The translations under genes were made by a program, and so were the position numbers. Shown here one piece after another: positions 26,385 to 34,356 of a DNA stretch of 51,638 nt. The number at the start of each line of letters is the position of its first letter. Positions within the stretch are counted from its first letter, which is position 1. The notes under the pieces were generated by a model. The model saw nothing but the letters and a program-made list of their open reading frames with translations, was not told where the DNA came from and ran no database searches. Source of the stretch: Bacteroidota bacterium (lineage in GTDB: Bacteria > Bacteroidota > Ignavibacteria > UBA10030 > UBA8401); contig JAJYOK010000021.1 in assembly GCA_021796215.1 (NCBI GenBank), positions 1 through 51,638 of the forward strand. Reading direction: 5' to 3'.

Positions 26385-27305
26385 TCAAGACGCTTGATAC
26401 ATTTCCGGGGCTGTTTGTCCGGCACGCGAGTAATACACATTCCCTCGTGCGGCTCGAAGCGTGTTCACCATCAGCATCGCAATCGTCATCGGTCCCACGC
26501 CTTTCGGCACAGGCGTAATTGCGCTGGCAATATCTTTCACCCGCTCGAAATCAACATCCCCAACAGTTCTGAATCCGGTTTTCGTCGAAGCATCCGCAAT
26601 TTTGTTGATGCCCACGTCAATCACCACGGCTCCCGGCTTTACCATCTCCGCTGTGATCGCGCGTGCTTTTCCGACGGCGGCAATAAGAATATCCGCCTGC
26701 TTTGTGTAATAGGAAATATCCGGCGCGGCAGTGTGCGCAACTGTAACAATCGCATTCGCCCATTCTTTTTTCTGCATCAATATCGCCGCAACCGGTTTGC
26801 CGACAATGTTGCTGCGTCCCACAATCACAACATGCTTGCCTGCCGGATTGATGCTGCTTCGTTTCAGCAATTCCCATATTCCTGCCGGCGTACAGGGAAG
26901 AAATCCTTTCAATCCGATCAGCATTCGTCCGACATTCACGGGATGAAAGCCGTCAACATCTTTTTCCGGCAGAATCGTCTCGATCACTTTCTGCTCGCTG
27001 ATGTGAGCCGGCAGCGGAAGCTGTGTGAGAATGCCGTGAATCTTCGGGTCGTTGTTGAATCCACGGATCATCTCCAGCACATCGTGTTCGGACACAGTTG
27101 CTGGAAGTTTTTCCGTCACGGAATAGAATCCGATTTCCTCGCACGCTTTCCCTTTGCTTTTCACGTACGACTGCGATGCCGGATTTTCTCCGACAAGAAT
27201 AAATGCAAGTCCCGGCGTAATGCCGCGTTCCGCTTTCAGCTTTTCCGCTTCCGCCTTGACTTCTTGTTTTATGTCTTCAGATATTTGTTTGCCGTCTATG
27301 ATCAT
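26385..27305 (-). CDS. folD: Bifunctional methylene-THF dehydrogenase / methenyl-THF cyclohydrolase
   Basis: The 306-residue protein is FolD, which makes 10-formyl-THF from 5,10-methylene-THF in one-carbon metabolism. Visible are YVKSKGKACEEIGF (catalytic Lys region), GILTQLPLPAHI, PEKDVDGFHP, PCTPAGIWELL, and the NADP-binding site VIVGRSNIVGKPVAAIL, with the end motif TPVPKGVGPMTIAML. The length is normal. Its start codon lies 6 bp beyond the inverted repeat of a GxxExxY cassette, so its leader and weak ribosome site come from the cassette end. Confidence 0.97.
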   Translation of the reverse strand: MIIDGKQISEDIKQEVKAEAEKLKAERGITPGLAFILVGENPASQSYVKSKGKACEEIGFYSVTEKLPATVSEHDVLEMIRGFNNDPKIHGILTQLPLPAHISEQKVIETILPEKDVDGFHPVNVGRMLIGLKGFLPCTPAGIWELLKRSSINPAGKHVVIVGRSNIVGKPVAAILMQKKEWANAIVTVAHTAAPDISYYTKQADILIAAVGKARAITAEMVKPGAVVIDVGINKIADASTKTGFRTVGDVDFERVKDIASAITPVPKGVGPMTIAMLMVNTLRAARGNVYYSRAGQTAPEMYQAS

Positions 27306-27311
27306 ATTTTA

Positions 27312-27766
27312 TCTCACGCAAAGACGCTAAGAGAACAAAGTATTATTTATTTTCTTCTAAACCATTAACTATTCGTTTAATGCCATCCTTAATCAACACC
27401 GAGCCAAAGTTAATTAGAATACCCAGACGCAGATCAGTCAATCGCAAATATGTCAAAAGTTGTTTCTTGTGAACTGGTAAAAGATTTTCTACCGACTTTA
27501 ATTCAATTATTACTTTTTTCTCAACCAAAACATCTATCCGATATAAGGAGGAAAATTTTTTCCCTTCGAAAATGAGCGGCAGGTCTACTTCGGTTTCTAT
27601 AAATAAACCGCGTTCTCGTAATTTGTAAACCATAAGCTCCTGATAAACAGATTCGAGCAAACCTGGACCCAGAGCTGAATGCAAATGAAATGCAACATCA
27701 ACAACGGTATTTGCAATCTGATTTTCATTCATACTATACTTTACATCTTCGCGTCTTTGCGTGAGA
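27312..27766 (-). mobile_element. 455-bp GxxExxY cassette with inverted terminal repeats
   Basis: TCTCACGCAAAGACGCTAAG (27312-27331) and CTTCGCGTCTTTGCGTGAGA (27747-27766) are inverted repeats that match at 19 of 20 positions. They enclose one gene, a PD-(D/E)XK-type GxxExxY protein, with 11 and 14 bp of spacer. The cassette sits just 5 bp after the stop of the ymdB-like gene and 6 bp before folD. The form suggests a small mobile unit; no transposase is encoded. Confidence 0.6.
27343..27732 (-). CDS. GxxExxY protein (PD-(D/E)XK nuclease superfamily)
   Basis: The 129-residue protein has the family signature GPGLLESVYQE (GxxExxY), the motif YRIDVLVEKKVIIELKSVENL, where Asp and E-x-K form a PD-(D/E)XK-like site, and HKKQLLTYLRL near the end. 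The family (PDDEXK_3) is found mostly in Bacteroidota, Chloroflexi and other environmental genomes; its function is unknown. The gene is the only one in a cassette with inverted terminal repeats and is in the same orientation as its host genes. Its sequence is only moderately similar to the second copy at 31581, so the two were not made by a recent duplication. Confidence 0.9.
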   Translation of the reverse strand: MNENQIANTVVDVAFHLHSALGPGLLESVYQELMVYKLRERGLFIETEVDLPLIFEGKKFSSLYRIDVLVEKKVIIELKSVENLLPVHKKQLLTYLRLTDLRLGILINFGSVLIKDGIKRIVNGLEENK

Positions 27767-27770
27767 AAAG

Positions 27771-28562
27771 TCAGAATTTGGGAAAAATAATCTGTTCAAT
27801 TTTCACTGCTTTCCCGGTTTCAACTTCCACCTCGATTGCTACGCCGCAGAGATGGACATCATGCGATGCAACTTCGTACTTGTGCGGCGTTTGTTTAATG
27901 AAACGCGCGAGCGCCTGTTCCTTCTTCATGCCAAGCACGGAATCGTACGGTCCCGACATTCCCACATCCGTAATATATGCCGTGCCGCGCGGAAGAATGC
28001 GCGCATCGGCGGTCGGCGTGTGCGTATGCGTGCCGATCACCGCACTGACTCTGCCGTCAACATACCATCCCATCGCCATCTTTTCCGCTGTTGCCTCGGC
28101 GTGAAAATCAATGACACAAATTTTCGTCTGCTCGTTGATCTTCGTCAGCGCCCAATCCGCCATCCTGAACGGATCGTCCAGCGCCTGCATGAATGTGCGT
28201 CCCTGCAAATTAATGACGCCGACTTTTACTTCAGGAAGTTCGTACACCACAAAACCGTTGCCGCCGTTTTCACGCGGGTAATTTAGCGGGCGGAGGATAT
28301 TCCTGTTGCCGCCGAGCACTTTTCTGGAATCCCATCGGTCCCACACATGATTGCCGGTGGTGACAACGTGAGCGCCAAGAGCAAATAATGCTTTTGCATC
28401 TTCTTCGGAAATGCCTTTGCCTTCAGTGAGATTTTCTCCGTTGATGATGCAAAAATCTGCGTGATGCTTTTCGACAAGATTCTTAAAAAGTGTGGAGGTA
28501 AGTTCGAGTCCCGGCTTTCCGATAATATCGCCGATAAAAAGAATGTTCAAACGGTTAGACAA
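27771..28562 (-). CDS. YmdB-like metallophosphoesterase (TIGR00282 family)
   Basis: The 263-residue protein has the calcineurin-like metal sites LFIGDIIGKPG, INGENLTEGKG, TTGNHVWDR, DFHAEATAEKMAMGWY and VIGTHTHTPTAD. These match the TIGR00282/YmdB family, which hydrolyses 2',3'-cyclic nucleotides and in Bacillus affects biofilm and sporulation. Its length is that of the family. It was probably directly upstream of folD before the GxxExxY cassette came between them; the stop codon is 5 bp from the cassette end. Confidence 0.92.
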   Translation of the reverse strand: MSNRLNILFIGDIIGKPGLELTSTLFKNLVEKHHADFCIINGENLTEGKGISEEDAKALFALGAHVVTTGNHVWDRWDSRKVLGGNRNILRPLNYPRENGGNGFVVYELPEVKVGVINLQGRTFMQALDDPFRMADWALTKINEQTKICVIDFHAEATAEKMAMGWYVDGRVSAVIGTHTHTPTADARILPRGTAYITDVGMSGPYDSVLGMKKEQALARFIKQTPHKYEVASHDVHLCGVAIEVEVETGKAVKIEQIIFPKF

Positions 28563-28597
28563 TGGGATTTCCTTTGTGTCTGATGGATGAGTAATTG

Positions 28598-28755
28598 ATG
28601 TTACGCAAAAACCGGAACAGCGTCATTCCCGAATATTCTCATCGGGAATCTCATTGTGCACCTGCATTAAAACTGGATTCCCACCGCAGTTTATCCTGCT
28701 GTAAGCCTGCTTGCCGGCGGGCGGACGGGAATGACAATGCTTTTGTGCTTTTTAC
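28598..28755. repeat. Dispersed repeat-like spacer with hairpins
   Basis: Starts with ATGTTACGCAAA, the same 11-12 bp as the end of the element at 16328. It contains GTCATTCCCGA...TCGGGAAT and a stem with TGCTTGCCGGCGGGC, and ends near CGGGAATGACAATGC. Similar ATTCCCG motifs occur at 21583. It fills the gap between ymdB-like and beta-propeller genes. Probably one or more non-autonomous repeat elements. Confidence 0.5.
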
Positions 28756-31546: not shown

Positions 31547-32015
31547 GATTAAACGCTGAGTTGCAGAGACGCTGATGAATTTATTCAAGCAATTTATTTA
31601 CTTTTCTACGAATCCCTTGTTTCAATATCGGTACATTAAAATTGATCAATAAACCTATACGCTTATCTGCAAGTTTTAAATATGTTACAAGCTGTACTTC
31701 GTGAACCGGAAGAAGAATTTCGACGGCTTTTAATTCAACAACAATTTCCTTTCCGACCAAAATATCTATGAAAAATTCTTTGTCTAATTTTTCACCCTTG
31801 TAATAAATTGGAAGTTGAAGTTGCTGTTCAACAAAAAGCTCTCGTTTCTTTAATTCTTTTACTAAACACGCTTCATAAACCGATTCAAGAAGGCCGGGAC
31901 CTAATTCCCGATGAACATCAATCGCCCCGGCAATAATTTTCTCCGTAAGTTTATCATACTTCGCTTTTGTCATATTCAAAAAGTATCTCAGCGCCTCGGT
32001 GTCTCCGCGTTCATC
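31547..32015 (-). mobile_element. Second GxxExxY cassette with imperfect inverted repeats
   Basis: The left end (31547-31581, core ACGCTGAG...CAGAGACGCTGA) and the right end read in reverse (from 32015, core ACGCGGAG...CCGAGGCGCTGA) match at about 24 of 34 positions with one gap. Between them lies only a GxxExxY gene. The right end overlaps the stop codon of the rhomboid gene, and the left end lies 12 bp from the ispG start. Confidence 0.5.
31581..31973 (-). CDS. GxxExxY protein, second copy (PD-(D/E)XK nuclease superfamily)
   Basis: I start at the ATG at 31973 (MTKAKYDKLTEKII, 130 residues) rather than the in-frame TTG at 31979. The signature GPGLLESVYEA and the site IDILVGKEIVVELKAVEIL with Asp and E-x-K are clear, followed by HEVQLVTYLKLADKRIGLLINF. 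It shares the family core with the copy at 27343 but differs over much of its length. It sits alone in its cassette between rhomboid and ispG. Function unknown; nuclease activity is inferred from the fold only. Confidence 0.9.
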   Translation of the reverse strand: MTKAKYDKLTEKIIAGAIDVHRELGPGLLESVYEACLVKELKKRELFVEQQLQLPIYYKGEKLDKEFFIDILVGKEIVVELKAVEILLPVHEVQLVTYLKLADKRIGLLINFNVPILKQGIRRKVNKLLE

Positions 32016-32994: not shown

Positions 32995-33085
32995 TTGAAA
33001 CCTGGCATTGATGGATTGCTGGAATAATGAATTGAAAAAATCAGAGACTTTGACGACTCATCAATCCACTTATCCATCAATCCGT
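32995..33085. repeat. 'ATCCATCAATCC'-rich spacer repeat
   Basis: Between pgk and the rhomboid gene, short copies of ATGGATTG, CATCAATCC and TCCATCAATCC occur on both strands and could pair with each other. The unit resembles short dispersed repeats common in related genomes. It may form a hairpin behind pgk. Confidence 0.35.
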
Positions 33086-33087
33086 TT

Positions 33088-34356
33088 TCATTTTTTCTCC
33101 ATCAACGCAGCAACACCCGGAAGCGTTTTGCCTTCCAGAAATTCGAGCGATGCGCCGCCACCTGTGGAAACATGCGACACCTGTTTTTCCAATCCTGCCT
33201 GAGCAATTGCCGACGCAGAATCTCCGCCGCCGACTATGGTAATTGCACCTAACTTCGTTGCGTCAGCAAGAGCCTGTGCAACGGCGTTTGTTCCTTTGGC
33301 AAAATTCGGCATTTCGAAAACACCCATCGGCCCGTTCCACACAACAGTTTTTGCTCTCTTGATTTCATTGCTGAAAAGTTTCACCGTCTCCGGTCCTATA
33401 TCTACGCCTGCCCATCCAGTGGGGATTGCGCTGACACTGACAGTTTTCATTGGCGCATTGTTATCAAATTTATCAGCAACGACACAATCAACAGGAAGCA
33501 GGAGCTTGATATTCTTCGCTTTTGCATCAGTGAGAAGCTGCTTTGCAAGTTCAATCTTGTCCTCTTCTAACAACGATTTCCCGATTTCCATTCCCTGCGC
33601 TTTGTAAAACGTGAACATCATTCCGCCGCCGATAAGAAGCGCGTCAACTTTTCCCATCAAATTCTGAATCACATCAATTTTGCCGGAAATTTTTGCGCCG
33701 CCAAGAATTGCAACATACGGCTTCACAGGATTGAGCGTCGCTTTGCTGAGATAGGCAAGCTCTTTTTCCATCAAGAAACCGGCGACCGCAGGAAGGAAAT
33801 GCGCTACTGCTTCCGTTGAAGCATGCGTACGGTGTGCCGAACCGAATGCATCATTCACAAATACATCGCCGTACACCGCCAGCTCTTTTCCCATTCGTGC
33901 GCGATCCGTCGCTTCCTTAGAAGTCTCTTCTTTGTGAAAACGCGTATTTTCGAGCATCAGAATTTCGCCATCGTGAAGAGCATCAGCCATCGCTTTCGTC
34001 TCTGCACCGATTGCCGCCGGCGCAAGCTTGACCGGTTCCCCTAAAAGCTGGGAAAGGCGTTCGGCAACTGGCTTCATTTTATGTTTTCCTTCGATGAAGG
34101 CTTTTTCATCGAATAGCTTCCCGTCCTTCCCGGCTTTTTCTTTTGCTTTCTGTGTATCTTTTTTCGGATCGCCGAGATGCGACATCAGCACAAGGTATTT
34201 CGGTTTCTGTTCAAGAATATATTTGATGGTCGGCAGCGCGGCGCGGATGCGGGTGTCGTCCTGAACAATTCCGTTTTTCATCGGGACATTGAAATCAACA
34301 CGCATAAGTACGCGCTTCCCGGAAAGCGCAACATCTTTAACAGTTTGTTTATTCAT
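33088..34356 (-). CDS. pgk: Phosphoglycerate kinase
   Basis: I start at the ATG at 34356 ([25 protein letters not shown], 422 residues). Conserved blocks include [62 protein letters not shown] and [11 protein letters not shown]. It is longer than most bacterial enzymes because of a Lys-rich insert (about residues 68-98) after SHLGDPKK. The enzyme transfers phosphate from 1,3-BPG to ADP in glycolysis. gapA is directly upstream, but an intrinsic terminator stands between. Confidence 0.97.

Follow-up and report, generated by a model that had tools for sequence, protein, structure and literature searches.

A GxxExxY gene between inverted iteron arms: a probable REPtron-like mobile unit with a nuclease proposed to recognise its own ends

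The window, by which we mean the whole analysed stretch of 51,638 nucleotides from a Bacteroidota bacterium (contig JAJYOK010000021.1), carries between a ymdB-like gene and folD a cassette that belongs to a very widespread family of mobile units of about 0.4-0.5 kb, each with one GxxExxY gene between two arms. The mobility of these units is well supported and we regard it as highly probable, since empty sites were found and inverted ends flank most GxxExxY genes in many phyla. The unit is probably REPtron-like, with a nuclease that recognises its own iteron ends. A reading made beforehand from the letters of the window (the sequence-only reading) had proposed a tiny mobile unit consisting of a nuclease and its own ends, without a transposase; the form of such a unit is well supported, while the part of the nuclease as the mover is what we infer.

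Within the window, the cassette and its neighbours are arranged as follows:

26385-27305, minus strand: folD, the downstream neighbour.
27309-27332, plus strand: left arm, facing inward, with iterons CGCAAAG (27317-27323) and CGCTAAG (27325-27331), the third being degenerate.
27343-27732, minus strand: GxxExxY gene encoding a predicted PD-(D/E)XK nuclease of 129 aa (PF13366, TIGR04256, Cas4-like fold).
27739-27769, minus strand: right arm, with iterons CGCAAAG (27755-27761), CGCGAAG (27747-27753) and TGTAAAG (27739-27745), read on the minus strand.
27771-28562, minus strand: ymdB-like metallophosphoesterase gene (PF13277, TIGR00282), the upstream neighbour.

Positions 27309-27332 and 27746-27769 are inverted with respect to each other over 24 nt, with 92% complementarity and 413 nt between them. 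The core (27312-27331 and 27747-27766) is matched at 19 of 20 positions, and the local inverted repeat scores 19, compared to a maximum of 9 in shuffled sequences. The 20-bp inverted ends noticed earlier are thus real, and a chance origin is ruled out by these shuffles and, at other loci, by offset controls. As ends of the element they also stand, but the length of 20 bp represents only one flavour of a variable arm. That they enclose a single gene with a PD-(D/E)XK-type site likewise held, and the active-site residues are invariant in relatives. The gap of 6 bp to folD (start at 27305) was given correctly; that to the ymdB-like gene (stop at 27771) is 4 bp and not 5. Each arm consists of two good and one degenerate 7-bp iteron (CGCAAAG-A-CGCTAAG.. 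on the left and CGCAAAG-A-CGCGAAG-A-TGTAAAG on the right). Two further intergenic repeats of the window (28594-28706 and 33004-33096) match several dispersed places in congeners and are not iteron arms.

The window protein belongs to the GxxExxY family, scoring above the curated cut-offs over the full model for both TIGR04256 'GxxExxY protein' (134.8 bits, cut-off 35) and PF13366 PDDEXK_3 (132.8 bits, cut-off 22). Among 54 relatives, residues E27, D67, E77 and K79 are invariant and Q91 and Y95 nearly so; the active-site motifs E77-x-K79 and Q-x3-Y are intact in the window protein. Its predicted structure (pLDDT 95) is best matched by the Cas4 protein SSO0001 (Foldseek E 2.8e-4; superposition of the predicted structure with Z 9.2 and rmsd 4.5 over 103 residues), followed at lower ranks by restriction enzymes, AddAB and Holliday-junction resolvases. 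The conserved D, E-x-K and Q-x3-Y residues together with this fold match identify it by prediction as a Cas4-fold PD-(D/E)XK nuclease of the Cas4/RecB kind; fold and residues indicate a nuclease but do not tell which DNA is cut. A search of the PDB by sequence returned no relative. PADLOC gave nothing beyond weak matches to Cas4 models, and the protein was therefore rejected as a known defence gene; it was also rejected as a phage or plasmid gene, with no phage match and eight scattered replicons. In the literature, GxxExxY proteins were found mentioned in passing or in a virus genome paper (judged by its title), and PF13366 in unrelated work.

To what extent such ends belong to the gene family was determined for a cross-phylum sample of 80 GxxExxY loci from named organisms of at least 15 phyla, 79 of which had enough flanking sequence. 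Flanking inverted repeats above the 99% shuffle level were present at 65 of these 79 genes, again from at least 15 phyla, whereas the same test slid to offset places in these loci was passed in 8 of 284 cases. The expectation of the sequence-only reading that inverted ends should recur next to other GxxExxY genes was accordingly borne out. Two further sets of the order gave similar results (30 of 39 and 11 of 16), with several of the misses still displaying iterons by eye, and none of 29 ymdB genes passed the test.

An order-wide line-up showed that the ends of GxxExxY loci follow one design in several sequences. An arm consists of about three 7-bp iterons of the type C-R-C-N-R-A-G (or T), separated by spacers of 1, 2 or 3 bp and facing inward on both sides; flavours include CGCAAAG, CACAGAG, CGCAGAG, CACGAAG, CACGGAT and CGCAACG. 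In a divergent GxxExxY subfamily (L077, L083, L336, L338, L347, L404 and L407), the iterons are of the CACNGAT type and stand 2-3 bp apart, and an arm often has four to five of them. At another locus (L112, G022:C16:123394-124062), out-facing and in-facing arms alternate around one GxxExxY gene with regular gaps of 15-17 and 7-8 bp. Searches with the arms in Rfam returned no known RNA family, and iteron strings were not found in the literature, where single flavours turn up solely in work unrelated by title.

The two arms of an element are matched to each other. Within elements, agreement is 0.92 at iteron letter 2 and 0.89 at letter 5, compared to 0.50 and 0.54, respectively, between elements (in both cases the lowest P value attainable with 2,000 permutations). 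The free fourth letter (0.53 within and 0.40 between elements) and the spacers (0.41 and 0.34) hardly agree. Pairing within a stem would need a match at all positions, whereas recognition of the iterons by a protein would not; agreement limited to certain letters hence makes stem pairing an unlikely cause of the likeness of the arms. In addition, an arm is a run of direct iterons and is itself no palindrome.

Arms also occur dispersed in the genomes. In 98 genomes of the order, 1,159 exact triple-iteron arms (spacer 1 or 2) were counted, compared to about 9 for a reversed-pattern control. The 65 genomes with GxxExxY genes contained 1,137 of these arms and the 33 genomes without such genes 22. 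The number of arms followed that of GxxExxY genes with a Spearman coefficient of 0.73, and partial correlations with arm number were 0.58 for GxxExxY, 0.02 for S23 and 0.14 for Y1 transposases; as the 98 genomes are related, these values are descriptive and overstate independence. In many genomes the arms far exceed twice the number of GxxExxY genes (e.g., 108 arms and 11 genes), indicating that most are solitary, or belong to gene-less hairpins. The window's genome likewise has dispersed end sequences that lack a gene, and these often form hairpins of about 57-110 bp (L010, L011, L013, L014 and L020).

Neither of two other gene families of the same genomes shares these arms. CRCNRAG arms were found at none of 29 S23 genes and none of 30 RAYT genes, the latter having ordinary REP-like hairpins, and with the low partial correlations both RAYT/REP as the source of the arms and S23 as their partner were rejected. 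S23 four-helix genes (TIGR02436; L172-L201; L325 1653-1976) have inverted repeats of their own in 17 of 29 cases (2 of 55 in the offset control), built from other iterons of the TAGGCAA, TAGGGTA and TCAGCGA types, and form a parallel, undescribed system. In the congener G001, an S23 gene occupies a site that in the window's genome holds a GxxExxY-type hairpin.

On a tree of 106 GxxExxY proteins, which rests on few columns and leaves many forks unresolved, two iteron letters and the spacer length required 13, 13 and 10 changes, compared to 21, 20 and 21 with shuffled labels. Arm type thus tracks the GxxExxY protein clade. Phyla are intermixed on this tree (49 changes), and the nearest relative of the window protein comes from a Desulfobacteraceae genome (62% identity), while none of the other copies compared from the window's own genome exceeds 51% identity with it.

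An unlikely explanation is that DNA with iteron ends is moved by a machinery of the host or by one acting in trans, with GxxExxY as cargo or as an iteron-binding regulator. The shared architecture and sites of the S23 genes suggest a common moving process, and the congener G002 has 10 arms although it lacks any GxxExxY gene. This explanation is opposed by the specificity of the iterons for the gene family, by the dependence of arm number on GxxExxY number after S23 and Y1 transposases are accounted for, and by the tracking of the protein clade by arm type.

Presence or absence of the units was compared at orthologous sites. Throughout the order, ymdB lies next to folD, in most cases without any insert. 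At the window site, G002 has kept the left arm without the GxxExxY gene, and G001 has a copy with an internal stop. The window contains a second element:

31552-31576, plus strand: left arm with iterons CGCTGAG, TGCAGAG and CGCTGAT.
31581-31979, minus strand: second GxxExxY gene, encoding 132 aa, 46% identical to the first.
31987-32011, minus strand: right arm with iterons CGCGGAG, CACCGAG and CGCTGAG.

The site of this element (about 31552-32011), which like the iteron make-up of the arms had escaped the sequence-only reading, is empty in both G001 and G002. Of the copies elsewhere in the window's genome, G002 lacks the one beside leuS, and one further copy is missing from both congeners. A unit located between atpD and atpC in the ATP synthase operon (L002, G000:C14:287296) has an empty counterpart in G002 and another hairpin repeat in its place in G001. 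An empty or differently filled site was thus encountered at every own-genus locus compared. In another genus of the order, with six species, G050 and G084 have one site filled that is empty in G083; there, G081 has a hairpin of another flavour that contains no gene, and G085 has other DNA. A unit in Sphingomonas parapaucimobilis separates fabD from fabG; in S. paeninsulae and Rhizobium, these two genes are direct neighbours with no unit between them. The search for empty sites that had been proposed together with the cassette was therefore successful within the genus and beyond.

Another check proposed at that time, for target duplications, yielded none: direct repeats at 67 junctions were not longer than in re-paired controls (2.94 and 3.04, respectively), with element boundaries being uncertain. 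Intergenic flanks near the insertions have been rewritten, so that exact junctions and duplications are unreadable. Copies within one genome are usually only 40-50% identical, suggesting that bursts are rare. The most recent duplication seen is a pair of units 27 kb apart (L365 and L366, G084:C364:4150 and 31014) whose proteins are 87.5% identical and whose arms are of one type. In another genus, the ymdB-folD site (L041/L110, G008:C93) has a GxxExxY gene with gene-less hairpins on both sides, in the order A-B-gene-A-B.

The sequence-only reading had considered the cassette to be perhaps homing-like. In such a scenario, iteron hairpins would be older dispersed repeats invaded by a nuclease gene, and gene-less hairpins would be empty sites; hairpins with the same arms do exist (L010, L011, L013, L020 and the array in G008), and the left arm kept in G002 would fit as well. 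However, most empty sites are without any hairpin, no common loop target was seen, and the one hairpin read closely shares subterminal sequence with a gene-bearing copy, as deletion derivatives would. Instead of the one conserved target site of a homing endonuclease, differing insertion sites were found (ymdB/folD, ispG/rhomboid, atpD/atpC, fabD/fabG and radA/FAD protein), and arms disperse without the gene. Homing is therefore not supported, and we consider it very improbable. Slightly less probable still is that the iterons serve a useful operon gene as operators or in RNA processing, with ordinary gain and loss, which would suit the position of 51 of 58 clear named cases (88%) downstream of a same-strand gene and the retention of the gene at a Flavobacterium locus in several species, but not the solitary arms, which number in the hundreds and are located away from such genes, the empty or differently filled own-genus sites, or the copies with stop codons (five of the 80 named loci and the G001 copy).

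Among known systems, the closest likeness is to the REPtron, a solitary RAYT (TnpA-REP) gene flanked by inverted REPs, in which the repeats disperse genome-wide and have co-evolved with the transposases (PMC3733652, PMC8266576). As in REPtrons and TIRtrons, a solitary small gene lies between inverted repeats that spread as singles, pairs and arrays, mostly downstream of genes; gene copies are mostly single and divergent, and repeat and protein appear co-evolved. However, the enzyme is a predicted PD-(D/E)XK nuclease and not a Y1/HUH transposase, and the arms are three short iterons and not GTAG- or CGTC-tagged palindromes. Since, of the defining features, dispersed inverted flanking repeats were found but neither a Y1/HUH gene nor a tagged self-palindromic REP, the GxxExxY element is not a REPtron, although by architecture it works like one.

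The intervening sequences of 23S rRNA, which sit in the rRNA and are excised by RNase III, also consist of a 0.4-kb unit with one small ORF between long inverted repeats, with patchy presence and no transposase (PMC4990558). They encode the S23 four-helix protein and have other iterons, whereas GxxExxY units lie between protein genes, and no S23 protein inside an rRNA gene is involved here. As in MITEs, gene-less hairpins share inverted ends with gene-bearing copies, but neither a transposase family with these ends nor a target duplication was found. The Cas4 family, including solo-Cas4 and MGE-Cas4 (PMC5704561), shares the Cas4-like fold, the E-x-K and Q-x3-Y motifs and weak profile matches; it differs in that the GxxExxY protein has 129 aa, does not match a solved structure by sequence, carries its own ends and is located outside a CRISPR or virus context.

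Taken together, we favour a REPtron-like unit in which the nuclease most likely recognises, by binding, the iterons of its own arms. It would then cut at these iterons and drive the movement, and the unit and its gene-less arm derivatives would reach further gaps between co-directional genes, either by copying or by relocation, and leave no target duplication; the joining of the new copy would belong to the same model. The nuclease as the recognising engine appears reasonably probable. Against it count the junctions, which yielded neither a target duplication nor exact boundaries, the dispersed CACCAAG arms of G029, which do not fit any of the five GxxExxY loci read in that genome, and the within-genome copies, which are mostly old and divergent. 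Beyond that, it is conceivable, if rather less than an even prospect, that GxxExxY elements constitute a separate, undescribed class of mobile DNA across much of bacteria, in which a Cas4-like nuclease of 130 residues is sufficient to recognise triple-iteron ends and to spread both the unit and arms lacking the gene, with no transposase, recombinase or reverse transcriptase taking part, and that S23 genes with their own iterons constitute a parallel second class.

GxxExxY is a common gene of 'function unknown', and intergenic repeats of this kind are common in environmental genomes; tying the gene to the repeats would explain both as parts of a nuclease-driven REP-like system. Provided that the nuclease is the engine, one protein of 130 residues and ends of 25 bp would represent a minimal transposition mechanism, whose iteron specificity looks programmable. 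The model is open to test with one protein and one oligonucleotide.
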